Source of the DNA: Rhodobacteraceae bacterium bin131
GTDB taxonomy: Bacteria; Pseudomonadota; Alphaproteobacteria; Rhodobacterales; Rhodobacteraceae
DNA length: 64,000 nt
Direction of reading: 5' to 3'
NCBI GenBank assembly: GCA_002239085.1
Contig: MPNP01000006.1
Location: 1-64,000 of the forward strand
Part shown: piece after piece, positions 21,030 through 56,811 of the stretch
Position numbering within the stretch: the stretch's first letter is position 1
Layout: each line of letters begins with the position of its first letter
Made by a program: the position numbers and the translations under genes
Notes under the pieces: model-generated
Database searches by the model: none
What the model saw: only the letters and a program-made list of their open reading frames with translations
Told to the model about the DNA's origin: nothing

Positions 21030-21830
21030 ATGAAAACAGACGAACTTTTAACTTTCACCAAAAATATCTTACTGCCAAAAGCTAATTCAATTTTGTCACA
21101 AACTTATCGTGACTACTGCCAAGGCCAAGACATTGAAATAGTGACCAAGGCGGACCAATCACCGGCAACCCAGGCGGACCGTATGACAGAATCTGCTCTT
21201 AGGGAATTGATTAGTGAAAATTATCCTCTTCATGGAATTCATGGTGAGGAATTTGGTGGCCATAATCTTGACTCTGATTGGATTTGGGTTCTTGACCCCC
21301 TTGATGGAACCAAAGAGTTTGTGGCTCAGAAAAAGGGGCAGTTTGGAACATTGATTGGTCTGTTGTATAAAGGAAAAGCAGTTTTGGGAGCCATGAGTGA
21401 CCCGATTAATAATCAGCAATGGTTTTCGGGTCAAGTCATGCAGCGAATCAATAATCGTTTAGAGTTATCTGAGAGTACTATTGCCTGCACGCGACCCTGT
21501 GAAATGTTCCCTACTCACGAGTTGCAGAATAAAATGTCGCACGTTGAGGTAACGGCTCACGCAATAAAAACGGATTTAAATTGCTTAGGATTTGCTGGGG
21601 TGATTGATGGTTTATTTGATGCTGTTATTGAAAACCAACTTAAGGCCCATGATTTATTACCACTCATTCCAATTCTGTTAAATGCTGGACTTCAGGTTGT
21701 TGATTTGAGCGGCAACTCCTATGCCTGTATGGAATTTGCTTCGGCGGAGGCTTTTGAAAGAAAATATGGTGTAATTGCTGCCTCAAATCCCACATTGATG
21801 GAACAAATATTAAGCTGTTTTAACCCATAA
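21030..21830 (+). CDS. hisN: Histidinol-phosphatase, inositol monophosphatase family (HisN type)
   Basis: HGEEFGGHNLDSDWIWVLDPLDGTKEF with intact metal ligands; within the his operon. Confidence 0.85.
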   Translation: MKTDELLTFTKNILLPKANSILSQTYRDYCQGQDIEIVTKADQSPATQADRMTESALRELISENYPLHGIHGEEFGGHNLDSDWIWVLDPLDGTKEFVAQKKGQFGTLIGLLYKGKAVLGAMSDPINNQQWFSGQVMQRINNRLELSESTIACTRPCEMFPTHELQNKMSHVEVTAHAIKTDLNCLGFAGVIDGLFDAVIENQLKAHDLLPLIPILLNAGLQVVDLSGNSYACMEFASAEAFERKYGVIAASNPTLMEQILSCFNP

Positions 21831-52528: not shown

Positions 52529-53293
52529 ATGTCAGTTAAATTTGTTTGGGTCAGGCGGTCTGCAATAATAAAATGGGCACTCATAGGTGGCTTAATAATT
52601 TGGATAAGTATCTCATCGGCCTCAAGTCAACTGAAAGAAGAAAACTATTCTTTCGAAATCCGCTCTTTTGGTTTTACTCTTGGTTATGTTTTTGCTGGAA
52701 CAATTTCAAACGGGCGAAGGTATAAAGTCGCTTCCGTAATGCGGAGCAGTGATTTTGTTAGCATATTTTCGAAACGACGATTCGAAACAAAAGCCGAAGG
52801 CACGGTCAGTAATGGCATGATCAAATCAGAACGCTACGAGCTACTCTCCAATATCGGCAGTAATCAAAGTACCAAACTACTCACGTTCTCGGATGGACGA
52901 ATTACAAATTATGAAGTGAATTCTGAGAGTGAACCCAATCCTGTGGATATCAATGACGGTATCGCAAGTCTTGATTACCTCTCTGGATTTTACGCATTGT
53001 TAAATCCGAAGCCTGCAAATGAACTCTGCAACATGTCTTTTTATCTTAAGGATGGCGAACGGGTGGCTCTCATGAATATTGAGGAACCGAGCCCCTTGCA
53101 ACCAGAAAATATCATTTGCAATTCCACTTATACAAGGGTCAAAGGGTTTGATGCTGATGAAATGGAAAACGAACCACAAATAGATTTTACTCTTCTTTAC
53201 ACCCCGTCATCTACCTCTCAAGGCTACTATGAATTGAAAAGAATGAGTTTTACAGCAGATTTTGGACAAATCTCCATAGTTCGGATAAACTAA
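52529..53293 (+). CDS. DUF3108-like secreted protein
   Basis: N-terminal hydrophobic segment; YSFEIRSFGFTLGYVFAGTISNGRRYKVASVMRSSDFVSIFSKRRFETKAEG. Confidence 0.65.
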   Translation: MSVKFVWVRRSAIIKWALIGGLIIWISISSASSQLKEENYSFEIRSFGFTLGYVFAGTISNGRRYKVASVMRSSDFVSIFSKRRFETKAEGTVSNGMIKSERYELLSNIGSNQSTKLLTFSDGRITNYEVNSESEPNPVDINDGIASLDYLSGFYALLNPKPANELCNMSFYLKDGERVALMNIEEPSPLQPENIICNSTYTRVKGFDADEMENEPQIDFTLLYTPSSTSQGYYELKRMSFTADFGQISIVRIN

Positions 53294-53759: not shown

Positions 53760-53860
53760 CGTAAATTATTCCTCTATAACAAATTCTTATATTTTGATTG
53801 CGTGAATTTGCACTATCTCTTTTAATTCAGATTAGAAATTGTTTCAAAAGGTTACACTCT

Positions 53861-54424
53861 ATGCCAAAAATAAATGGAAATGAAATCAAAAACGGAAATG
53901 TCCTTGAGCATAAAGGTGGTTTATGGTCAACTGTAAAAGTTGATCATGTCAAGCCTGGTAAGGGTGGTGCTTTTGCCCAAGTTGAACTTAGGAATCTTCG
54001 CAATGGTGCAAAGCTTAACGAGCGTTTCCGGTCAGTTGATAAAGTTGAAAAAGTTCGTTTAGAGCAAAACGACTATCAGTATCTCTACTCTGAGGGAGAG
54101 ATGCTCGTTCTTATGAATATGGAAACCTACGACCAAATTTATGTCAAGGCTTCCATACTTGAAGACCGATTGCCTTACCTGAAAGAAGGTACAATGGTCA
54201 TTGTTGAGCAATTTAACGAAGAAGTTTTGAAAATTACTTTACCTCAAAAGGTAACCTTTAAGGTGGTTGAAACTGAACCTGTCGTATCAGGGCAAACCGT
54301 TGCGAATAGTTTTAAGCCAGCACTTCTTGATAATGGTGTTCGAGTTATGATTCCCCCCTACATTACCGAAGGAACAGAGATTGTCATTAATACTGAAACG
54401 CTTCAATACTCTGAAAGGGCTTAG
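53861..54424 (+). CDS. efp: Elongation factor P
   Basis: MPKINGNEIKNGNVLEHKGGLWSTVKVDHVKPGKGGAFAQVELRNLRNG; start chosen at internal Met. Confidence 0.97.
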   Translation: MPKINGNEIKNGNVLEHKGGLWSTVKVDHVKPGKGGAFAQVELRNLRNGAKLNERFRSVDKVEKVRLEQNDYQYLYSEGEMLVLMNMETYDQIYVKASILEDRLPYLKEGTMVIVEQFNEEVLKITLPQKVTFKVVETEPVVSGQTVANSFKPALLDNGVRVMIPPYITEGTEIVINTETLQYSERA

Positions 54425-54434
54425 AACAATGCTA

Positions 54435-54869
54435 TTATTGTTTCGAAACTATCAATCCCGTCGTTGATGCTGTTGCATAAATTTTTCTACTTTTATCGTA
54501 TATTTTTCCTTCAGCCACTGCGGTTCGGCGGCCGATATGGACAGATGTGCCCTCGGCCCAGACTTCCTGATTGAGCGGAATTTGATGGGTCATGTTGACC
54601 TTATACTCAAGGGTTGTAAAAATTTGATTTGCTGGGAGACGGCTGATCACCGAACAAGCCATCGCACTATCAAGAATAGATCCATACCAGCCACCATGCA
54701 CGGTACCCATTGGATTAACATAATTGTGATTTGGGACCCCACTGAAAATAACTTTGCCTAATTCAAGATAAACCAATTTAAAGCTGAGAGTTTCACCCAT
54801 CGCAGGATTATTACCCTCATCTATCATTTTTTGTAGTAACTCAAAACCTGGCAAATCTTTGGGGTACAT
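54435..54869 (-). CDS. PaaI-family (hotdog) thioesterase
   Basis: NPMGTVHGGWYGSILDSAMACSV, VHIGRRTAVAEGKIYDKSRKIYATASTTGLI. Confidence 0.82.
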   Translation of the reverse strand: MYPKDLPGFELLQKMIDEGNNPAMGETLSFKLVYLELGKVIFSGVPNHNYVNPMGTVHGGWYGSILDSAMACSVISRLPANQIFTTLEYKVNMTHQIPLNQEVWAEGTSVHIGRRTAVAEGKIYDKSRKIYATASTTGLIVSKQ

Positions 54870-55051
54870 GTGATACCTATTAAAACCATTTAGGAATAAC
54901 AATTAAGAATTATCAATGTAAAAATAATATTTATTTTTCCCTGTACGGAGTTTTTGCTCAACAGGTGATGTTTATACCATGGCAATCCCAAAAAATGATA
55001 TTTCAATTTGAGTAATCTTATTGTCAGCTCGAAAAAAAAGAAACAGCAAAT

Positions 55052-55840
55052 ATGACCAACCTAAATGCTAACATCAATGTAATGGCGAAAGCTGTTTCCA
55101 TTGCCGGCGACACCCTGCTCAGAGATTTTGAGGAGATCATCCGTCTTCAATCCTCAATTGAAGGGGCGGGCAAGCTTACTCAAAAGGCCTTGCAACGTGC
55201 CGATAATGCAATCATTTACGAGCTCACTTCTGCTCGACCTCATTACAGTTTGGAAAGCACTTTATCCTCCCCGATTATCGGCAAAGACCCAACTCGTAAA
55301 TGGCTGGTTTATGCTGTTTCTGGAGTTGATAATTTTGCTCGTGGAAATCCTAATTGGGTCATTTCAATTGGTCTTTTATTTAAAGGGGAAATTCAACTCG
55401 CAGTTATCAACCAGCCTTGCTTTAATGAAATCTACAAGGGTGTGAAGGGTAACGGTGCCTATTCACGGCAAATGAAACTTCGCGTTGCACCCATCAATCA
55501 AGTATCTAGTTTTTCGGTCGCTATTGACTTTGACTCATGCAAATCCTTAAGCATTCCACCCCTATTAAACACTATATTTTCCAATTTTCGTGCCATTCGA
55601 ACAAGTGGTTCGGCGAGCTTAGATCTACTGAATCTCAGCGCCGGTAAAATTGATGGATTTATTGGCTTTCAATGCGACCCCATTGAGATCCTTCCTGCAC
55701 AACTTCTTCTGACTGAAGCCGGAGGGTTAGTTCATACCTTTCCCAACCAGAACAATAATGACTACCATGGGTTAATTGCCGCAGGGTATCACAAATTTGA
55801 CGAATTTAAGCAAGCGGCTTTGGAATTTACGACAATTTAA
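55052..55840 (+). CDS. SuhB/inositol monophosphatase-like protein lacking the catalytic metal ligands
   Basis: Collinear with SuhB (RKWLVYAVSGVDNFARGNPNWVISIGLLFKGEIQLAVINQPCFNEIYKGVKGNGAY; RTSGSASLDLLNLSAGKIDGFIGF; LLLTEAGG) but DPLDGT reads YAVSGV. Confidence 0.82.
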   Translation: MTNLNANINVMAKAVSIAGDTLLRDFEEIIRLQSSIEGAGKLTQKALQRADNAIIYELTSARPHYSLESTLSSPIIGKDPTRKWLVYAVSGVDNFARGNPNWVISIGLLFKGEIQLAVINQPCFNEIYKGVKGNGAYSRQMKLRVAPINQVSSFSVAIDFDSCKSLSIPPLLNTIFSNFRAIRTSGSASLDLLNLSAGKIDGFIGFQCDPIEILPAQLLLTEAGGLVHTFPNQNNNDYHGLIAAGYHKFDEFKQAALEFTTI

Positions 55841-56040: not shown

Positions 56041-56811
56041 TTACGGCCTAAATGCCCACTTAGGGTCATTTCTAATTTCTACCCCATCTGCTTCCATTTT
56101 CCCGATGGCACGATCGAAGTTTAGATAGGCGATTCCCATCTTATTAGACTGGGTATACAGAATTCCGACAGGCTTCCCATTAACACTGATAGTGCTACCT
56201 GGTCTTACTGAACCTTTGACAATGACTCTAGCAAGTCCTTTTCTGAGAGTTGTTTTGTGTTTCATTCGGGCCGTAACCTCCTGCCCCACAAAGCATCCTT
56301 TGTTAAAATCTACCCCATTGATCCTTTCAAAACCAGCTTCAAGAATGAAAGTTTTGTTTTGAATAAGTTCAACACCCGTTTCTGGAATACAATTCATAAC
56401 TCGAATTAATTCCCAGTCTACATTCTCTTCTGATAGTTTCTCTTCACTATAATGACGCCATCCTAGAGCGGTACATCGGGGATCATGACGCACAAATTTG
56501 GCGGTGGCATTTAAGCCTCTACTTACTTTTAATTTCGTATCGTTCAGCTCAACTTTCGCTCGAAGTTGATACATTGCAAGACGAGTTATCAGTTCTTTTG
56601 TAGAATTGGTTTTGATATCTAAAAAATAATCAGAACCTTTTTTGAATAAGAAGAAATCGTAAAGGTATTTACCCTGAGGTGTCAGCAGAGCTGAATAAAC
56701 CAAATCTTTCTCGCTCACAGGCAAACTGTTGGTAATCAAACCCTGTAGAAACTCGGCATTATCATGTCCCCCAATGCGAATGACTGAACGACAATTATTG
56801 AAATTAGACAG
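56041..56811 (-). CDS. ygfZ: YgfZ-like tRNA-modification/folate-binding protein; probable CTG start
   Basis: Family motif KGCFVGQEVTARMKH; N-terminal SNFNNCRSVIRIGGHDNAEFLQGLITNSLPV extends 24 codons beyond the ORF-track start to a CTG with AGGAGG 5 nt upstream. Confidence 0.8.
   Translation of the reverse strand: MSNFNNCRSVIRIGGHDNAEFLQGLITNSLPVSEKDLVYSALLTPQGKYLYDFFLFKKGSDYFLDIKTNSTKELITRLAMYQLRAKVELNDTKLKVSRGLNATAKFVRHDPRCTALGWRHYSEEKLSEENVDWELIRVMNCIPETGVELIQNKTFILEAGFERINGVDFNKGCFVGQEVTARMKHKTTLRKGLARVIVKGSVRPGSTISVNGKPVGILYTQSNKMGIAYLNFDRAIGKMEADGVEIRNDPKWAFRP

Follow-up and report, generated by a model that had tools for sequence, protein, structure and literature searches.

The gene at positions 55052..55840 (+ strand) of the window, i.e. 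the 64,000-nucleotide stretch of Rhodobacteraceae bacterium bin131 (contig MPNP01000006.1) analysed here, encodes a 262-residue Inositol_P (PF00459) protein that, in two related Rhodobacteraceae genera, is the genuine SuhB orthologue by vertical descent, but is catalytically disarmed. The active-site loss is a property of the clade, neither a local oddity nor a sign of a dying gene, and the gene is under purifying selection. The protein is very probably a non-enzymatic pseudoenzyme; the further proposal, by analogy with E. coli, that it lost its phosphatase chemistry and has been retained for the Nus/rRNA role of SuhB is one to which we give about equal chances of holding and failing. The finding is stronger than first stated in an earlier note on this DNA, and concerns a variation on a known protein rather than a system of a new type.

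Identity and gene neighborhood

The open reading frame that the earlier note aligned collinearly with SuhB is exactly as it described, in frame, coordinates and quoted motifs. The encoded protein matches Pfam Inositol_P over residues 11-233 (E=2.5e-24, 86.7 bits, cut-off 27), and the PDB structures nearest to it by sequence are the SuhB entries 3luz, 2qfl, 6tqn and 6ib7; the SuhBs of Bartonella, E. coli and Pseudomonas are its nearest relatives of solved structure. Its score against the NCBIfam inositol-1-monophosphatase equivalog PRK10757, 90 bits, is below the cut-off of 332 bits; a canonical Rhodobacteraceae SuhB (that of G009) reaches only 223 bits, so this cut-off fails to reach the Rhodobacteraceae family anyway. 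In phylogenetic analysis the protein groups with SuhB, apart from HisN, CysQ and other inositol monophosphatases (IMPases), and it lies in a shared gene order.

The gene is preceded by an EF-P-like gene (53798..54424, + strand), a conserved upstream neighbor, and by a PaaI-like thioesterase gene (54435..54902, - strand), which occupies the interval between the two in both pseudoenzyme genera; a YgfZ-like gene (56041..56739, - strand) is the conserved downstream neighbor. The names of these three neighbors are presumed, having been assigned from sequence knowledge. The order EFP, PaaI, suhB, YgfZ, YebC is conserved in five other members of the window genus (G002, G003, G005, G006 and G008), and the short contig of G001 spans EFP to YgfZ. 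In the second genus, the same order extends from LepA to YgfZ in G428 and from EFP through PaaI to suhB in G022. The sole exception among readable flanks is G007, where the neighborhood is lost. Adjacency of EFP and suhB predates the pseudoenzyme, being present with the canonical gene in G023 and in G049, a member of another family.

Promoter and terminator signals near the gene did not rise above chance, and a viral sequence scan gave no match. A contig search with the single protein as query likewise gave none; with the alignment as query it matched five relatives, all of them MAGs recorded as 'Rhodobacteraceae bacterium'. Beside the locus, a DUF3108-like gene (window positions 52529-53293) diverges unusually fast, with ~22-30% identity between syntenic orthologues.

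Loss of active-site residues

Residues are numbered by the sequence of E. coli SuhB, which serves as a ruler. In this numbering the window protein carries D44>L, E67>T, E68>L, D84>Y, L86>V, D87>S, T89>V, T90>D, E205>G, W211>I and D212>E, such that the metal ligands E67, D84, D87 and D212 read T, Y, S and E, and the DGT loop reads SGV. Most of the changes lie in four segments (all + strand, numbered here by the window protein): LTQKALQRAD (residues 42-51, 55175..55204) stands for FVSxADxxAE, with L47 as the D44 equivalent; SLESTLSSPII (residues 66-76, 55247..55279) stands for the GEE/EES segment, with E67 and E68 becoming T70 and L71; WLVYAVSGVDNF (residues 84-95, 55301..55336) stands for W(I/V)(V/I)DPLDGTTNF, with D84, D87 and T89 becoming Y87, S90 and V92, and with G91 and N94 retained; and IEILPAQ (residues 211-217, 55682..55702) stands for WDxAAGx, with both W211 and D212 replaced. 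G88, N91, G186, L190, D191 and G198 (E. coli numbering) are retained, and the glycines and helix motifs on which the SuhB fold rests are still in place. From the residues replaced we infer that phosphatase activity is absent.

Across 45 intact Rhodobacteraceae SuhBs the catalytic columns show at least 95% invariance, and losses comparable to those in the window protein recur in nine other species, which together exclude chance. D44 is kept in none of the ten pseudoenzymes as against at least 95% of the 45 canonical proteins, and R184, present in 44/45 canonical SuhBs, is lost in 9/10 pseudoenzymes. E67, T89 and E205 are, like D44, replaced in all ten, D84 in nine and D87 in eight, with the replacements at position 84 (S, Y, Q or E) varying by subclade. 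The claim of the earlier note that several catalytic ligands are gone therefore stands for E67, D84 and D87, among others, but the loss is not uniform: D212 has undergone only a conservative exchange to E in the window protein and remains unchanged in four relatives, with D or E present in 6/10.

Among 115 columns that are at least 95% conserved in canonical SuhB, 10/13 catalytic columns are lost (i.e. kept in at most 3/10 pseudoenzymes) vs 33/102 other conserved columns, a difference for which the Fisher p=0.004 is indicative, because the sequences are related and the columns hence not independent; the catalytic set was picked in light of what is generally known about how IMPases work. Approximately 30 of the canonically conserved columns are kept in all ten pseudoenzymes. 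Three derived residues (window-protein numbering) are, in addition, fixed in 10/10 pseudoenzymes: R97 (55340..55342, + strand), just past the old DGT loop, which is H in 45/45 canonical SuhBs; M141 (55472..55474, + strand), at a position that is variable in canonical SuhB, mostly S, R or T; and D159 (55526..55528, + strand), which is G in 45/45 canonical SuhBs. Speculatively, a new salt bridge between R97 and D159 may have arisen close to the old active site.

Distribution, phylogeny and selection

An open, disarmed suhB was found in eight of the nine members of the window genus, all eight found copies being of this type; the ninth member, G004, is 79% complete and lacks the gene. Both species of the second genus (G022 and G428) likewise carry an open, disarmed copy. 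Both genera are represented mainly by metagenome bins. When 397 genomes of the family, for the most part one from each genus, were scanned, pseudoenzyme-profile scores were 317-452 bits in these two genera and at most 275 bits in every other genome, with the two genera alone exceeding 300 bits. All 45 inspected copies from other genera, the best-scoring ones included, are canonical; the other genomes among the 397 were assessed from their scores alone, which leaves independent loss elsewhere possible. The close relatives carry the same losses at this locus, without DPLDGT, as the earlier note had proposed should be checked. In G428 (L127) and G022 (L042), LDG is still read at positions 86-88 although D44, E67 and D212 are gone; from the residues present, the second genus appears to represent an intermediate stage of active-site decay.

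The pseudoenzymes form a single clade (SH-aLRT 99) nested inside canonical Rhodobacteraceae SuhB, in a tree that places nine of the ten and whose long branches call for caution. A NusA tree is compatible with G022 adjoining the window genus. Within its genus the window species stands out by an unusually long NusA branch (L125), in line with its long branch in the SuhB tree.

In pairwise codon models, close pairs of the disarmed genes (dS 0.07-0.40) gave dN/dS values of 0.17-0.31, significantly below 1 (likelihood ratios vs dN/dS=1 of 7.8-56), and the value for the G022-G428 pair is 0.11; pairs with the window species and the G003-G007 pair were saturated and left out. The ratio is thus not elevated, contrary to what the earlier note would have taken as a sign of a decaying pseudogene. 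Close pairs of the intact second IMPase (below) gave 0.11-0.16 and those of the neighboring YebC 0.02-0.04. Canonical SuhB pairs gave 0.02-0.05 at larger dS, such that their gap to the disarmed genes may be partly due to method. Mean pairwise identity is 48% among the pseudoenzymes vs 70% among canonical SuhBs, and this faster evolution suggests that constraint on the disarmed protein is partly relaxed or redirected.

Predicted fold

An AlphaFold2 model of the window protein from a 57-row alignment has a pLDDT of 92.2 and a pTM of 0.90, and its best Foldseek matches are SuhB structures, including 6ib8_A (TM 0.84) and 6tqn_S (TM 0.83), from the SuhB-NusA AR2 complex and the rrn antitermination complex, respectively. 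The retention of the fold that the earlier note supposed is thus borne out by the prediction. With nine pseudoenzymes alone the C-terminal half was modelled poorly (pLDDT 63), and the rise to 92 on adding 48 PF00459 relatives indicates that the prediction leans on catalytic relatives; the model thus shows that the protein is compatible with the SuhB fold, and is no independent proof of it.

Other PF00459 proteins and the second IMPase

The genome of the window encodes four PF00459 proteins, of which the three besides the disarmed SuhB resemble HisN, CysQ and a second IMPase; all three keep E67, D84, D87 and D212. One intact paralogue lies within the window (21078..21815, + strand) and serves as an internal control: its best NCBIfam match is HisN, below the cut-off, and its EE, DPLDGT and D212 are intact. 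The survey of PF00459 proteins revealed no further SuhB orthologue in the window assembly or among the remaining members of the genus, which answers the question of a second canonical suhB raised in the earlier note.

The second IMPase (L001, G000:C262) belongs to one orthologous group that is present and intact in 10/10 pseudoenzyme species, that of G001 being split over two contigs. Some 20/118 canonical family genomes also encode a protein like it (at least 195 bits), the group being patchy in the family, and the ten species represent only two genera, so its co-occurrence with the disarmed SuhB is suggestive only.

Functional interpretation

E. coli SuhB has NusA AR2 and rrn leader RNA as binding partners and is required for stable NusB/E entry (PMC6614801), and the cold-sensitive phenotype of E. 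coli suhB is independent of IMPase activity (PMC4807359). By analogy, the common ancestor of the two genera would have lost metal-dependent phosphatase chemistry from SuhB, and the folded protein would stay under purifying selection owing to a non-enzymatic job. That job would be of the E. coli type, i.e. that of a structural subunit that binds the nascent rRNA leader and NusA and aids entry of NusB/NusE into the rRNA transcription complex, and thereby correct rRNA synthesis and folding; the second intact IMPase would meet any residual need for IMPase activity. Taken further, it may be that SuhB is here purely a transcription/ribosome-assembly subunit, with R97, M141 and D159 fixed at the former active site and chemistry left to the second IMPase, a tentative picture that we consider somewhat likelier to be wrong than right.

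The suggestion of the earlier note that selection for the NusA/rRNA role alone preserves the gene is compatible with the data in that the NusA of eight genus members still has its two C-terminal repeat regions and aligns end to end with the NusA of canonical relatives. It finds no echo in the known contact: the E. coli residues for tight AR2 binding, K251 and L254, are D/E and mostly non-L in the pseudoenzymes, and the same holds for catalytic Rhodobacteraceae SuhB, so the known AR2 contact is untraceable. The loss of R184 from most pseudoenzymes and their faster evolution likewise count against this reading. When 16S genes were sought for rRNA leaders and boxA, they were found in only 1/14 genomes and in no genus member. 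A literature search found no paper that tests a Nus role of SuhB in alphaproteobacteria.

The main competing view is that the protein is a neofunctionalized pseudoenzyme, in which the old cleft has come to bind a ligand or a partner such as the second IMPase or some translation factor, the protein acting as a regulator outside Nus complexes. The fixation of R97, M141 and D159, with R97 right behind the former DGT loop, the co-occurrence with the second IMPase and the long-lasting linkage to efp all speak for it; however, the partner is hypothetical, the second IMPase occurs in canonical genomes too and the efp linkage, being ancestral, is not specific to the pseudoenzyme. We regard this view as unlikely, though with a real chance of being correct. 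That the protein is still an enzyme, with an altered metal site (e.g. D/E212 together with D159) and a different hydrolase activity, would accord with the acid at 212 in most copies and with D159 as a new invariant acid, but the replacement of D44, E67, T89 and E205 throughout, and of D84 and D87 in nearly all copies, argues against it, as does the subclade-specific variation at position 84, which is unlike a new conserved metal site; we consider it improbable.

Decay of a pseudogene after relaxed selection could account for the lower mean identity and the long branches, but is contradicted by ten intact frames without internal stops and by a dN/dS significantly below 1 in every usable pair, and the losses are concentrated on catalytic columns while about 30 canonically conserved columns persist in all ten; this reading was rejected as very improbable. 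An artefact, in which an assembly error, contamination or a mix-up of paralogues hides a canonical suhB located elsewhere, has in its favor the fragmented window assembly (416 contigs, 5.7% contamination), but the same gene recurs in the same neighborhood across independent assemblies, on which ground assembly error was rejected, and none of the three other PF00459 proteins is a SuhB orthologue; its probability is negligible.

A disarmed SuhB kept under selection bears on a wider question, namely which face of SuhB, the phosphatase or the Nus-complex subunit, selection maintains outside E. coli and its kin. Loss of the active site with fold, gene position and selection kept is a natural sign that SuhB matters beyond phosphatase chemistry. 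A clade that has discarded the active site is a natural experiment, in which the remaining function would be non-enzymatic, and comparison of its ten diverged sequences can reveal the functionally important surface free of a catalytic background. A literature search found no paper describing a natural SuhB or IMPase pseudoenzyme.

Comparison with known relatives

HisN and CysQ of the pseudoenzyme genomes have the superfamily in common with the disarmed SuhB, but differ from it in their intact metal ligands, separate clades and other loci. Canonical Rhodobacteraceae SuhB (that of G009, G011, G023 and others) is the direct orthologue and shares the N-terminal SANLNxMxKA and the DPTRxW motifs; unlike the disarmed protein, it keeps the catalytic residues in 45/45 inspected copies. 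The nearest alphaproteobacterial structure is Bartonella henselae SuhB (3luz/3lv0), the best match in sequence and fold, collinear over 232 residues, in which, in contrast with the window protein, EES and DPLDGTTNF are intact. E. coli SuhB (2qfl, 6ib7, 6ib8 and 6tqn), both an IMPase and a Nus-complex subunit, is orthologous, with the family and the predicted fold in common, and has a known non-enzymatic role; it keeps an active phosphatase site, whereas in the disarmed SuhB this site is gone and the AR2 contacts K251/L254 are not conserved.
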